Assembly (NCBI GenBank): GCA_020055645.1
Contig: CM034548.1
Coordinates: 19,964,001-20,028,000 of the forward strand
DNA from: Tomocerus qinae
Lineage: Eukaryota > Arthropoda > Collembola > Entomobryomorpha > Tomoceridae
Direction: 5' to 3'
DNA: 64,000 nucleotides
The notes below the pieces were generated by a model that did not search any database, was not told where the DNA came from, and saw nothing but the letters and a program-made list of their open reading frames with translations. The position numbers were made by a program, and so were the translations under genes. The stretch's first letter is position 1; each line of letters opens with the position of its first letter. Shown piece by piece: positions 4,976 to 10,762 of the stretch.

Positions 4976-5115
4976 CTAACAAGATATTACACGACTTAGA
5001 ATGACTAGAATATCTAAGCATCGACTTACGACTTTTGGTTCTCTAACCAGGGAGCAACTGTTACCTATTTCAAGGACGTATTAATAGGTTTTACTACGGG
5101 CTGCAGCCCCCCACC
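4976..5115 (+). repeat. Interspersed repeat R1, + orientation (interrupted by the 4195-4975 element)
   Basis: The sequence from the ATATTACACGACTTAGAATG words through GGTTCTCTAACCAGGG to ACTACGGGCTGCAGCCCCCC is shared, in reverse orientation, with 9646-9796. The first bases of the unit lie left of the inserted element (about 4180-4194). The two copies face each other across 4.6 kb. Confidence 0.7.
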
Positions 5116-6294
5116 CCGAAATCCAAGAAGAAGGGAATTTTTTTCTCAAAATAGCAAAAAAATTTTGCCATATTTGACTCATTTCCGTCAAAAAATGCCA
5201 AAAATTTTCTCGGTCCGATCGAATATATATTAAAATATATCTGGTGGAAATCTTAGCCCCCCGCCGAAACTCAGTTCTGTAAACGTGCTTAACTTATTTT
5301 GTGGTGACTTGAATCTTTTTGTTACTGCACGACTTTGTACGATGAATATAGTCGAAGTTACAATCCATTTTCAGTAGTCTTCAGTTGTTGAACCCCTTCC
5401 CCTGTTGGGGGTGGGGGCGACTTTGCCAATTTTCAAAAACGGTCTTCCTGTTTATACTTCAAAATTGTAGCCTGAAAAATTGAACAGTGTAGCTCAAACC
5501 GTTCCAAAGTTATAGTGTACAGGGTTTTCTAGATAAACAGACAGACAGAAAGAGCAACCCTATAAAAAGGAACTCCTTTCAATAAACCATTATAAAACGG
5601 ATGGAGTTTTTTTCAAACAAACCAAACAACAGTCAACAGTGGAGTTTATTTGTATGAATAGCATTATGTAATTGGACTAAAAGGCTTCATCTTAAGGGTG
5701 GGGCGGCCCACCCTACAAACCAAAACAAATTTATCATAATCTAACATAATCTAAGGTCTGCCCCTAGGAAAAGTCTCCATCCGTATATAGACTTACCGTA
5801 ATGGACCTTTGACTTGATCGCTATCTACCACTGATTAAGTTTTCGAATGAGCTATGTTACACCACTTTCTACGATGAATAGAAGTCAAGTTACAGAAATT
5901 TGTACTTTTCATCCCTATTTTCCTCAGTCATCCCCAGGGTGTATGTAATTATAACTATTACTATAATAGTACTGAACCTTTCCCATTTCTAAATAAGCTA
6001 ATGAACGACTTTCTACAATGAACAAAACTAAAACAGTTGCACTTCCCATAATGTTTAACCCACTTCCCCTGTCAGGAGATGTATGCAACATGTACAGTAG
6101 TTCTTGAACCTCTTTTGCTATCAAATAAGTTGCTGTATGACTTTTCATTACGATGAATGAAGTTGCAGTTATATCGGTTTTTAATTTTTAAACCGTTCCT
6201 CCAATCAGGGGCTGTGACCTATGTTACCCATAAACGAATCTAGTGTTCCCTTGAAAATTTGAATTTTCAAAGTTCACACATGTTAGGAGTATGG

Positions 6295-6340
6295 AAACTT
6301 TCCGCACGCGTACTATTCATAGTACGCGTGCGGAAAGTTT
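6295..6340. repeat. Perfect palindrome, 22-bp arms with TC spacer
   Basis: The arms 6295-6316 and 6319-6340 are exact reverse complements around the dinucleotide TC. The arm contains CCGCACGCGTAC, GC-rich against an AT-rich background. It could fold as a cruciform or RNA hairpin; no function is implied. Confidence 0.9.
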
Positions 6341-6727
6341 ATAATGTACTTGAGAAGCATAGATTAACAATGGAGGGCATTGGGGGATCACGTCTAAATA
6401 TCCAGGCTGAATTTAGGCAGCGGTACTTTGTTGCCACTGTCCCCGCTGTCGCCACCGTTGCCGCTAGGGGGTAAGGGGCGTCAGCGGCAACAGCATAAAA
6501 GCGGAAACAGTGGCAACAGTGGCGACACACAAAAACCACAGGTGGCAACAGCGGCGACACGCAAAATCCACTAGCGGCAACAGCGGCGACACAGCTAAAA
6601 CCACTAGCGGCAACAGCGGCGACACAGCTAAAACCACTAGCGGCAACAGAGACACATTAATCTGATTTCCTCTGTTGCCGCTAAACCTAATATAAGCCAG
6701 GTCACTGCTGCTCTATATTAATGTGTG

Positions 6728-7880
6728 GGCTGAATTTAGGCACCGGGATTTCGTTGCATCAATTGCCCCCGTTGCCCCATGCTTAGTCACTTTACCTATT
6801 ACTTTAATATGTTGCCTCCCGTCACTATTTTTGCTTCTTTTTTGGGCTGAATTTAGACAGCGGTACCTCGTTACCGCTGTTACCGACGTTACCGTTGTTA
6901 CCGCCAATCGCCAGCGGTAACACATCAGTAGCGGTAACAGCGGGAACAGCGGTAACATCGGTAACAGCGGTAACATCGGTAACAGCGGTAACAGCGGTAA
7001 CATCGGTAACAGCGGTAACAAGGTACAAGCACCACCGGTAACATCGGTAACACAACTACGGTAACATAGTTATTTCGGAATTAGATCCATCTCGCTGCGT
7101 TGCTCTTAGAGCATTATTATCAAAATAGCAGTGCAGTGCCTTACATTAGCCTTGGCGGTAACATCGGTTGGGTTTGCTGCAAACGGGACGCAGTAAGAAA
7201 TTCTAAGTTTTTTTCCCAATGCAAAATCGTACCCAAATTTTTCTAAGTATTTTCAAAACTAGTCACTATTTGCCTCTTTTTTGACCTAACCTAGTAAAAT
7301 TGAAACAACCAAACATTTATTATATTCATTTTTATTAGGTTAGGTTAGAAAAAAGGCAAAAATAGTGACGGGTGGCTTAAAAACTGATTATACACTGAAG
7401 AGTAAATTCGTCATTCTTACATTGGGAAAAGAACTTAAAAAAGGGTACGATTTTGCATTGGGAAAAAAACTTAGAATTGCCTACTGCGTCCCGTTTGCAG
7501 CAACCCAACCGGTAACATCGGTAACGAAAATGCATTCAGTCGTTACCGGTGTTACCGGTGGTGCTTGTACTTTGTTACCGCTGTTACCGCTACTGATGTG
7601 TTACCGCTGGCGATTGGCGGTAACAACGGTAACGTCGGTAACAGCGGTAACGAGGTACCGCTGTCTAAATTCAGCCTCATTTTTGACCTAACCTAATAAA
7701 AAATAAACTGTGACATAAACATGTAACAAAAATGTAACATGTTTACTTTTAATTAGGTTAGGTCAAATAAGATGCAAAAATAGTGACGGGAGGCAAACGG
7801 AAAAGACGATAGGTTAATTGCCTTAACTTGGGGCAACGGGGGCAATTGAAGCAACGAGATCCGGCAGCCTAAATTCAGCC
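6728..7880. mobile_element. Middle palindromic TIR element B, inserted in element A
   Basis: It has the same GGCTGAATTTAGGC terminus on both sides, with inner arms sharing CAATTGCCCCCGTTGCCCCA, and flanks AATGTGTG (6720-6727) and AATGTGTC (7881-7888), a 7-of-8 match to an 8-bp target duplication. The arms show about five mismatches in 52 bp. Its loop region contains GTCACTATTTTTGC and a GACCTAACCTAA / TTAGGTTAGGTC pair, words also found in element C. No coding sequence. Confidence 0.85.
6845..7676. mobile_element. Inner palindromic TIR element C, inserted in element B
   Basis: The ends are GGCTGAATTTAGACAGCGGT; the first roughly 99 bp of the two arms look identical, so this is the least diverged copy. 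The arms consist of CGGTAACAG / CGGTAACAT minisatellite words, followed inward by further paired blocks: a GGTTGGGTTTGCTGC block, a CGTACCC block with its mirror, and a TTAGGTTAGG loop near 7280-7350. The flanks TCTTTTTTG (6836-6844) and TCATTTTTG (7677-7685) match in 8 of 9 positions. A segment of about 100 bases near 7065-7155 is present only in the left half. No open coding frame of interest. Confidence 0.85.
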
Positions 7881-8321
7881 AATGTGTCTCTGTTGCTGCT
7901 GGTCAGTGCTGCCGATAGTGGTTTTAGCTGTGTCGCCGCTGTTGCCGCTAGTGGATTTTGCGTGTCGCCGCTTTTGCCGCTAGTGGATTTTGCGTGTCGC
8001 CGCTAGTGGTTGTACCGTGTCGCCACTGTTGCCACTGTCTCCGCTATTATGTTGTTGCCGCTAACCCCCCAAACCTCCCAGCGGCAACAGTGGCGACAGC
8101 GGGGACAGTGGCAACAAAGTACCACTGCCTAAATTCAGCCAATATCCAAGATAGTTGTGCTGTGGGACTTAGACATTTGCGGCCCGTTTGCTCCAATCTC
8201 ACCGTCTAACTTTATCCCCCTCTGAATACTTTCCATTGAAGAATGGGCTCAGCTTCTCTATTTAAGATTTAAAACATTTTTAACCTCCTATTAGCTTAAA
8301 ACCATTTGCGAATTGTAAAAA

Positions 8322-8472
8322 TATGTTGATACTTCCAGCAACCTCGCGGAGAAAATTTTGAAAAAAGTGACCACGTGATACATGTATTAAGAGCCAAGTG
8401 GATGGAGTCCTCCATCCACTTGGCTCTTAATACATGTATCACGTGGTCACTGCGGTTGCTGGAAGTATCAAC
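8322..8472. repeat. Long near-perfect palindrome, 41-bp inner arms with TC spacer
   Basis: The inner arms 8367-8407 and 8410-8450 are exact reverse complements separated by TC. An outer pair, 8325-8343 and 8454-8472 (19 bp, containing CTTCCAGCAACC and its mirror), continues the symmetry, with 23 unpaired bases on the left and 3 on the right. Confidence 0.9.
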
Positions 8473-8726: not shown

Positions 8727-9153
8727 TTACCTTATACCTCTCAGAATTTCCAAGGACGCTTTATAAAAAATTCTATAATAGCCATTATAGTCACCCAAGT
8801 AGTCAGTATTTTGCTGATCCCTCCAAGATTGTTATTAGTATAGTCATTCTCGAATCATAACTTTTCAAAATAGTCACCCAAATAGTCATCCTTGAATTGG
8901 ATCATCTTTAAAAGTCACCGGAATAGTCATCACTTTATTGGAGCACCCACTATAGTCAACCAAATAGTCATCCTTTAATAGGATCATCTTTTATAGTCAC
9001 CTCTATAGTCATCGTTTTAATGGTTCACCCACTATAGTCACCCTCCGAGATTGTTTAAGTCATCAATAGCCATGACTATAAAAAATTTAGACCCAAAATA
9101 GTCAATTCTCGACAGTCATCGGTGACTATGATGACTACAAATGCGCATCACTG
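8727..9153 (+). repeat. TAGTCA-rich element, copy 1
   Basis: It starts with TTACCTTATACCTCTCAGAA and ends with AAATGC...CACTG, and is a direct repeat of 10331-10762. The interior is dominated by the words ATAGTCACC and ATAGTCATC arranged in diverged units of about 82-85 bp. Its 3' end has the 17-bp sequence ACAAATGCGCATCACTG (9137-9153), whose reverse complement is at 9208-9224. No coding sequence. Confidence 0.75.
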
Positions 9154-9207: not shown

Positions 9208-9456
9208 CAGTGATGCGCATTTGTTGAAAAATGGTCATTTTTATAGTCATATCCCCATCACCTCCGTACCAAATAGTCATGACAGTAGTCACCACACCCC
9301 CCAGTCGTAGTAAGTAGTCATCCTAATAGTCACCAAGTTGTCTTACTAAATAATAAAAAGTGATGTTATAGTCACCACTCTAAACAGTTCTATAGTAACC
9401 CAATAGTCATTTCTTCTGAGGTTTGTACAAAAATAGTCACCTAATAGTCACGAGCT
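9208..9456 (+). repeat. Further TAGTCA-rich sequence starting with CAGTGATGCGCATTTGT
   Basis: It begins with the reverse complement of the end of copy 1, as though an oppositely oriented relative starts 54 bases later. It continues with ATAGTCAYC words separated by variable spacers. Its right border is unclear. Confidence 0.5.
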
Positions 9457-9620
9457 ATAGTTTACAGATACCAATAGTCACCCAATAGTCATCAGCCTTA
9501 GTTTGCAGATACCAATAGTCACCCAATAGTCATCAGCCTAAGTTTGCAGATACCAATAGTAACCCAATAGTCATCAGCCTTAGTTTGCAGATACCAATAG
9601 TCACCCAATAGTCATCATCC
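9457..9620 (+). repeat. Four tandem copies of a 41-bp minisatellite
   Basis: Units at 9457-9497, 9498-9538, 9539-9579 and 9580-9620. Each contains GCAGATACCAATAGTCACCC followed by AATAGTCATCAGCC, and they differ by only a few bases, so the expansion is recent relative to the surrounding TAGTCA words. Confidence 0.9.
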
Positions 9621-9645
9621 TTGGCAGCACAGTGAAAGTTAGTTC

Positions 9646-9796
9646 GGGGGGGGGGGCTTCAGCCCGTAGTAAAGCGCATCCCTTTAATACGTAGGTAAGT
9701 TGAAGTAGGTAACAGTTGCCCCCTGGTTAGAGAACCAAAAGTCGATGCTTAAATATTCTATATTCATTCTAAGGCGTGTAATATCGTTAGATAGCA
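9646..9796 (-). repeat. Interspersed repeat R1, - orientation, uninterrupted
   Basis: Reverse-orientation copy of 4976-5115 plus its left flank. It starts with a run of 11 G (9646-9656), then CTTCAGCCCGTAGTAAAG, and ends with CGTTAGATAGCA. It keeps an intact junction where the + copy is split by the 4195-4975 element, so it acts as an empty-site reference. Confidence 0.75.
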
Positions 9797-10330: not shown

Positions 10331-10762
10331 TTACCTTATACCTCTCAGAATTTTCAAGGATGCTTTATAAAAAAATCTATTATAGCCATTAAGTCACCCA
10401 AGTAGTCAGTACTTTGCTGATCCCTCCAAGATAGTCATTCGTATAGTATTCTCGAAACATAACTTTTCAGAATAGTCATCCTAGAATAGGATAATCTTTT
10501 ATAGTCATCGGTATAGTCATAGCTTTTTTGGAATCCCCATTATAGTCACCCAAATAGTCATCCTTGAATTTGATAATCTTTTATAGTCACCGATATAGTC
10601 ATCGCTTTATTGGAGCACCCAATATAGTCATCTGTATAGTCATCGTTGACCCTCAGAAATTATTTAAGTCATCAATAGTCATGAATATAAAAAATTTAGA
10701 CACAAAATAGTCAATTCTCAATAGTCATCGGTGACTGTGATGACTATAAATGCAACTCACTG
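10331..10762 (+). repeat. TAGTCA-rich element, copy 2
   Basis: Direct copy of 8727-9153, with the same start TTACCTTATACCTCTCAGAA, the same ATAGTCAYC arrays and the same 3' CACTG end; by eye about 85 percent identical. The copies are 1.6 kb apart. Confidence 0.75.

Follow-up and report, generated by a model that had tools for sequence, protein, structure and literature searches.

A nested composite of non-autonomous DNA transposons in Tomocerus qinae, with mostly inherited nesting

When several palindromic DNA elements with the same terminus lie concentrically, each between its own short direct repeats, the question arises whether the nest was assembled on the spot, one insertion after another, or whether it arrived already nested. 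Such a nest is found in the window considered here, that is, the whole stretch of 64,000 nucleotides that was analysed (C3:19964001-20028000, within the 334-Mb genome of Tomocerus qinae, 115 contigs), and an earlier, sequence-only reading had taken it for three successive local insertions of one family. Comparison with relatives in the same genome identifies the locus as a composite of non-autonomous DNA transposons in which a second nested pair entered the first, the nesting being mostly inherited. With the elements lettered A, B, C and E from the outside inwards, the history favoured below has, as a whole, a probability of roughly 85%: B would have been captured once by A, A+B and C+E would each have spread as units, C+E would have entered B and, less certainly than the rest, a Merlin transposase would have acted in trans.

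The 12-mer GGCTGAATTTAG occurs exactly six times in the window, and these occurrences are the six ends of A, B and C, which lie where they had been placed from the sequence; in shuffled windows, with one mismatch allowed, the word is found 0.43 times on average and three times at most, none of 100 windows reaching six. Element A, the outermost (6405-8140; all features are given on the + strand), is flanked by exact copies of AATATCCA (6397-6404 and 8141-8148). Element B (6728-7880, 312 bp without C), which is fixed at the same place inside other A copies and with A forms the composite unit, lies between AATGTGTG (6720-6727) and AATGTGTC (7881-7888), which agree at seven of eight positions, and element C (6845-7676), a separate mobile unit inside B, lies between TCTTTTTTG (6836-6844) and TCATTTTTG (7677-7685), which agree at eight of nine; the flanking duplications are therefore as first described. 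Inverted arms are present in all three elements, measuring 146 nt in A (about 87-90% identical), 72 nt in B (about 82-85%) and 104 nt in C (99%), with tandem arrays at 6512-6649, 6930-7020 and 7910-8004. The description of each element as a hairpin of minisatellite words holds as far as the arms are concerned, but such words, by reading the sequence, are scarcer in the arms of B than in those of A and C. The loop module said to be common to B and C is borne out by self-comparison of the window, in which no open reading frame of at least 200 aa and no Rfam match at gathering score was found.

The count of three layers, although correct for A, B and C, overlooked a fourth concentric one, element E (7166-7510), which is carried by C and whose termini, GGTTGGGTT(T)GCTGC, differ from the GGCTGAATTTAG ends of the other three while also starting with GG. 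The exact direct repeats GGTAACATC on its two sides (7157-7165 and 7511-7519) are by themselves weak evidence of insertion, because the host array has a 9-bp period; stronger evidence is provided by a solo E elsewhere (L079), which has GAAAAAGG on both sides and no family terminus near it. At least 40 genomic copies of E were scored, the window copy included. B and E each carry one copy of a palindromic core, F. In B, the left part of this core (6821-6844, an inverted match to 7764-7787) is cut by C at a T-run, and the rest follows at 7677-7787, its first nine bases being the C duplication; the second copy, inside E (7262-7369), is 73.6% identical to that of B.

Other repeats lie close to the nest. 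A short, perfect-looking palindrome, ACTTTCCGCACGCGTACTATTCATAGTACGCGTGCGGAAAGT, is found just upstream of A (6297-6338), and a near-perfect one of 86 bp (97.7%; 8366-8451), by appearance a separate hairpin repeat, about 220 bp beyond it. Repeats of 41 bp with AATAGTCACC words then form three arrays (8870-9043, 9432-9617 and 10471-10682), the first and third of them inside direct repeats of about 430 bp (82%), and an inverted repeat of about 150 bp (4976-5120 and 9643-9790; 79%), which encloses the nest and two of the arrays, may represent the termini of some larger, ancient element. A frame at 391-726, which we take to resemble part of a PPTC7-type phosphatase, has no Pfam match.

The outer and inner pairs at other sites

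The family is abundant: its 19-mer terminus, GGCTGAATTTAGRCAGCGG, has 868 exact matches genome-wide (428 forward and 440 reverse), against 0 for the reversed control. For element A, 58 loci of this genome were compared (the window, L031-L067 and L080-L099), 37 of the further loci having been picked by the left arm and 20 by B, in each case from the best 40 scored candidates. Both A ends and a target duplication were obtained in 48 of the 58 (8 bp in 44, 9 bp in four; 46 exact) and not in the other ten (L031, L049, L080, L081, L084, L086, L088, L095, L097 and L098). Assembly or segmental duplication accounts for some of the copies: over 5 kb, L062 matches L063 at 99.7%, and the two represent one region; given this pair, and a larger unit common to L064 and L099, the independent A sites are two fewer.

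A B-derived module is present in all 58 loci, the window and 57 others, in a sample of best-scoring copies from which an A copy that never held B may have escaped. Conversely, each of the 20 loci fetched by B has at least one A-type end. The modules follow the order A-left, loop, B, A-right, save for extra pieces and a few deviations: the loop module is missing from five copies, the right arm was not called in L086 and L098, the left B module was not called in eleven copies (L038-L041, L045 and L047-L052), and a module was called as its mirror in L034, L042 and L087. Both B ends with a duplication, at most one mismatch being allowed, were recovered in 38 of the 58 loci (31 exact), and the duplication is mostly AATGTGTC or its complement GACACATT. 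These two forms, GACACATT[B]GACACATT and AATGTGTC[B]AATGTGTC, were considered as two orientations of a flip-flopping inner loop, an idea rejected once the modules had been oriented, as the fetched strand explains the difference.

Most A copies are compact (620-905 bp in 41 of 48), and further insertions of at least 60 bp occur among these 48 in L032, L039, L041 and L083, with several in L091. Nine copies of 620-653 bp (L038, L040, L045 and L047-L052) have the right-arm module of B and no inner termini; in L038, the one of them that was read, core F is whole. In five others (L055, L056, L065, L066 and L067) the A loop and the left B duplication are lost, the loss running exactly to the left end of B; here B lies between inverted flanks of the CAGAGACACATT / AATGTGTCTCTG type (L055, L056 and L066) or is without its right end (L065 and L067), and the outer duplications of the five copies are all exact and all different. 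The simplest account of these observations is that B was captured once by A, after which A+B and its deletion derivatives spread. As a sign that the layers are internal structure, the sequence-only reading had named other copies in which the whole 1.7-kb unit moves as a single element; for B in A this is what was found, B lying at the same place between outer duplications at dozens of sites, whereas the same does not hold for C. Of the proposed three local insertions, what survives is that the layers are transposon insertions with target duplications of their own; B-in-A, in contrast, recurs elsewhere as a unit.

The inner pair has its own distribution. Two C copies lie outside A, between exact outer 8-bp duplications (CACTATTC in L077 and GACTCTTT in L078), and both carry E, the E junction showing the window's 9-bp repeat on the opposite strand in L078 and having lost the left 9-bp repeat in L077. 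A query spanning the A loop, B and C (positions 1-271) was matched end to end only by the window among 40 scored copies, the window included; 30 of the 39 others stop at query position 185, which is window position 6844, the base before C, and nine stop at 178-184. Since every match ends at the insertion point of C or at most seven bases from it, these 39 copies lack C there. The 36-mer across the B-C junction, with up to three mismatches allowed, is found in the window and, with two mismatches, at C2:13456 and C12:230635, which are probably one further place, because the start of C2 is apparently duplicated in C12. As this place does not appear among the 40 copies scored, the likelier reading is a second insertion, into core F of another host.

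Further composites exist. For instance, L035 and L054 share a third one, A+B+D (95.6% identical over 1257 aligned positions), at sites with different outer duplications, D being a relative of 363-390 bp with the terminus GGCTGGATTTAG. In L043, an A+B unit lies within a B-like element, and in L040 an A copy adjoins a relative, all three flanks being TAAATTAT. Another example is provided by L064 (832-2687) and L099, where A+B is enclosed by a host unit of about 1.86 kb; this unit, whose two copies agree at 99%, also contains a stray family terminus. Nesting of A+B in its own kind was considered for these two and rejected, as the host unit looks like a different palindromic element; A+B may thus also have ridden in another element.

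The near-identical arms of C had been taken to mark it as the youngest layer, a conclusion that the other copies contradict: C arms are 99.0% identical in the window, 97.3% in L077 and 100% in L078, that is, 97-100% in three of three copies, whereas the median is 89.5% over 48 A copies and 83.8% over 31 B copies. Because each subfamily keeps its own level across copies, arm identity is a subfamily trait and not a measure of copy age, and caution is called for in using it, or the order of nesting, as a clock.

In the history favoured here, one B element would have entered one A element, giving the duplication AATGTGTC, and A+B would then have spread as a single element, because the outermost GG ends are substrates that the transposase can use. 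Separately, E would have entered C and the pair would have spread in the same way, until a C+E unit entered core F of B at its T-run, either here or in an ancestral copy. Movement would have been by cut-and-paste, with a Merlin (IS1595-like) transposase supplied in trans and the inner ends carried along as passengers.

The transposase behind the family

Target duplications of 8 bp are also made by hAT and P elements, and hAT ends start with C/T-A-G. The ends of the present family start with GG, as those of Merlin do and those of hAT do not. By its published description, Merlin has terminal GG, target duplications of 8 or 9 bp and inverted repeats of 24-462 bp (PMC8101967), a range that includes the arms of A (146-244 nt) and C (104 nt). 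The outer duplications, 8 bp in 44 of 48 copies and 9 bp in four, likewise agree with Merlin and not with the mostly 9-bp pattern of Mutator/MULE elements. With regard to their general form, the elements are MITEs, being short, numerous and without a long open reading frame, with inverted repeats and a target duplication, and are also of the Foldback type in a descriptive sense, their long inverted repeats being built of tandem repeats.

The Merlin transposase domain (DDE_Tnp_IS1595) has 19 matches in the genome. The best of them, which has an open frame, lies between inward-facing family termini 12.77 kb apart (C1:35673642-35686412). The two ends of this stretch show 90.7% identity over 97 bp, and its flanks, AAAATGAC and AGAACTAC, agree at five of eight positions and do not form a clean duplication; this candidate partner is a single case, of which 2 kb of the interior were read (L100). 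In the first 54.22 Mb of C1, for which the list of exact termini is complete and adjacent inward pairs cover 0.063% of the sequence, one of three Merlin matches falls inside such a pair, compared with 0 of 16 for MULE and 0 of 42 for hAT. A partial, genome-wide list of 174 termini gives 50 inward pairs and the corresponding figures 1 of 19, 0 of 59 and 0 of 117. The expectation of an autonomous relative with a hAT-type transposase thus finds no support in these pairs, nor in the GG ends. Among other Merlin copies read in part, L101 (C4:13621600-13623700) and L103 (C1:41600500-41602500) have frames flanked by inverted 13-bp and 37-bp tandem arrays unlike the family's arms, and L102 has no family terminus within two mismatches. 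L101 and L103 are foldback-like Merlins distinct from the A/B/C family; their arms consist of their own tandem repeats, and such arms are therefore not foreign to the Merlins of this genome.

On account of the GG ends, the duplications of 8 and sometimes 9 bp and the one transposase between matching ends, the family probably consists of non-autonomous Merlin elements with foldback-like arms. The rival that survives best keeps the composite history and changes only the enzyme, to one of the Mutator/Foldback, hAT or P type. It draws on Tm1, a Mutator/Foldback family with tandem-repeat arms and duplications of 8-10 bp, mostly 9 bp, according to its description (PMC3169594), on the four 9-bp duplications among 48 and on the 8-bp duplications of hAT and P; it has to contend with 8 bp in the other 44, with the GG ends and with the absence of hAT and MULE domains from the terminus pairs (0/117 and 0/59 in the 50 pairs of the partial list, 0/42 and 0/16 on the complete C1 stretch). 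We regard it as rather unlikely, if still worth keeping in mind.

Target choice and recurrent nesting

From insertions said to fall near the centre of the host hairpin each time, it had been suggested that the family targets hairpin loops or its own copies. Centrality holds only loosely: expressed as a fraction of host length, the insertion point is 0.56 for B in A, 0.38 for C in B and 0.67 for E in C, and for two further nested insertions it is 0.65 and 0.25; moreover, survival alone may favour near-central positions, because a host struck close to its ends would no longer be mobile. Inverted repeats spanning the target were counted at 47 distinct sites (45 A-type and two C-type) and at control positions, and are a little, not convincingly, above the controls: 25 of 47 against 47.6% for arms of 6, 12 against 20.4% for 7, 5 against 8.2% for 8, 2 against 3.6% for 9 and 1 against 1.5% for 10. 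Targeting of hairpin loops is accordingly not supported, a spanning repeat of at least 8 bp being present at 5 of the 47 sites. Symmetric pairing around 43 eight-bp sites, on the other hand, exceeds the control at all five widths tested, for instance 1.65 of 4 against 1.06 (SE 0.14), 2.88 of 8 against 2.16 (SE 0.20) and, at the widest quoted, 10.7 of 34 against 9.2 (SE 0.43), an excess that is real but weak. A+T content is 74% in the target duplication and 66% in the flanks, so A+T-rich targets may account for part of it, and dimeric transposases are a possible partial source of target-site symmetry.

As for the family's own copies, L043 is the single case among 48 A copies in which the element was seen within a relative. 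For comparison, about 1.6% of the flanking sequence beyond 500 bp, and 0% of the remaining window, consists of relatives; a general targeting of own copies is not seen, and a hot spot inside the core is possible. A scan of the fetched loci for arms of core F yielded 126 intact arms and 11 other rows, in three of which family termini interrupt the T-run: in the window those of C, and in L035 and L054 those of D. The latter two are sister copies and hence one D event, and D cuts the core on the arm opposite to C. The remaining eight rows are unrelated partial matches, a small deletion (L040) and a repeated arm (L064 and L099). With C2:13456, which may be another such cut, one T-run of core F (TCTTTTTTG) has been struck by two fetched events and perhaps by a third.

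These results bear on the second rival, according to which three or four independent local self-insertions built the nest, the family targeting hairpin loops or its own copies. What speaks for it is that every layer has its own duplication, that the T-run of core F was the entry point of both C and D, though on opposite arms, that the B-C junction 36-mer recurs with two mismatches at C2:13456 and that symmetric pairing is raised at every tested width around the 43 sites; yet both A+B and C+E are found elsewhere as whole units, the spanning inverted repeats at the 47 sites are not convincingly above controls, 1 of 48 A copies in a relative compares with about 1.6% relatives in distant flanks, the insertion fractions (0.25-0.67) are not central, and A+T-rich targets may explain part of the symmetry, which together make this account improbable. 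Still more improbable, and largely refuted by the solo C+E and E copies with their exact outer duplications, is that a single long palindrome gave rise to the inner elements by template switching or fold-back recombination: the minisatellite arms do vary in length and rearrangement does occur, as in the five copies without the A loop (three with inverted flanks around B) and the nine short copies without inner termini, but B lies between duplications in 38 of the 58 loci, exact ones in 31, and C is absent from 39 scored copies.

An extension of the composite history can be offered tentatively, and we would sooner doubt it than rely on it: the family may grow by recursive self-capture, relatives repeatedly entering the T-run of core F and the outer ends taking over. 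If so, nesting would be a standing mechanism by which longer mobile elements are newly formed, as opposed to a chance feature of old sequence, and, if core F is a true hot spot of self-insertion, the target choice of a Merlin-type enzyme becomes testable.

Comparison with known systems

Foldback-like arms, nested MITEs and Merlin elements are all known kinds. The exact text of the terminus was found in no paper by literature search, and the available parts of the literature on Merlin, foldback, nesting, self-insertion and MITEs contained no description of the family; a scan of viral contigs with the terminus 16-mer returned 22 stretches with one match each, which look like chance because they are single, unpaired and drawn from a very large collection. 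With the Merlin superfamily (IS1595/IS1016-related) the family shares the 5'-GG, the 8-9 bp duplications and inverted repeats within 24-462 bp, as given in PMC8101967, and Merlin transposase domains exist in this genome. It differs in that the nest is without a transposase, its autonomous partner being only a candidate, and in that the arms are largely tandem minisatellites.

In the Foldback element FB of Drosophila, short tandem repeats make up the long inverted repeats, and similar tandem-repeat arms are reported for Tetris and Galileo. Tm1 of root-knot nematodes likewise combines long inverted repeats of short tandem repeats with variable arm length, according to PMC3169594. In contrast with these, of which Tm1 is reported as Mutator-related and Galileo as P-related, the family studied here has mostly 8-bp duplications and its evidence points towards Merlin. 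From this comparison, and within the parts of the literature that it covers, what appears to be new is the occurrence of foldback-like, probably Merlin, non-autonomous composites that spread as units.

Finally, nested and multimeric MITEs of rice and maize, with elements inside elements, were reportedly described by Jiang and Wessler in 2001. From these, as citing descriptions present them, the present case is set apart because the nested product itself recurs as a composite: copies of A+B, of C+E and of A+B+D lie at several sites, bounded each time by separate outer duplications, and with so many copies the case lends itself to asking how larger elements arise from small non-autonomous ones. 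A transposon nest is commonly interpreted as a datable stack of defunct insertions, whereas here the nest is a mobile unit.
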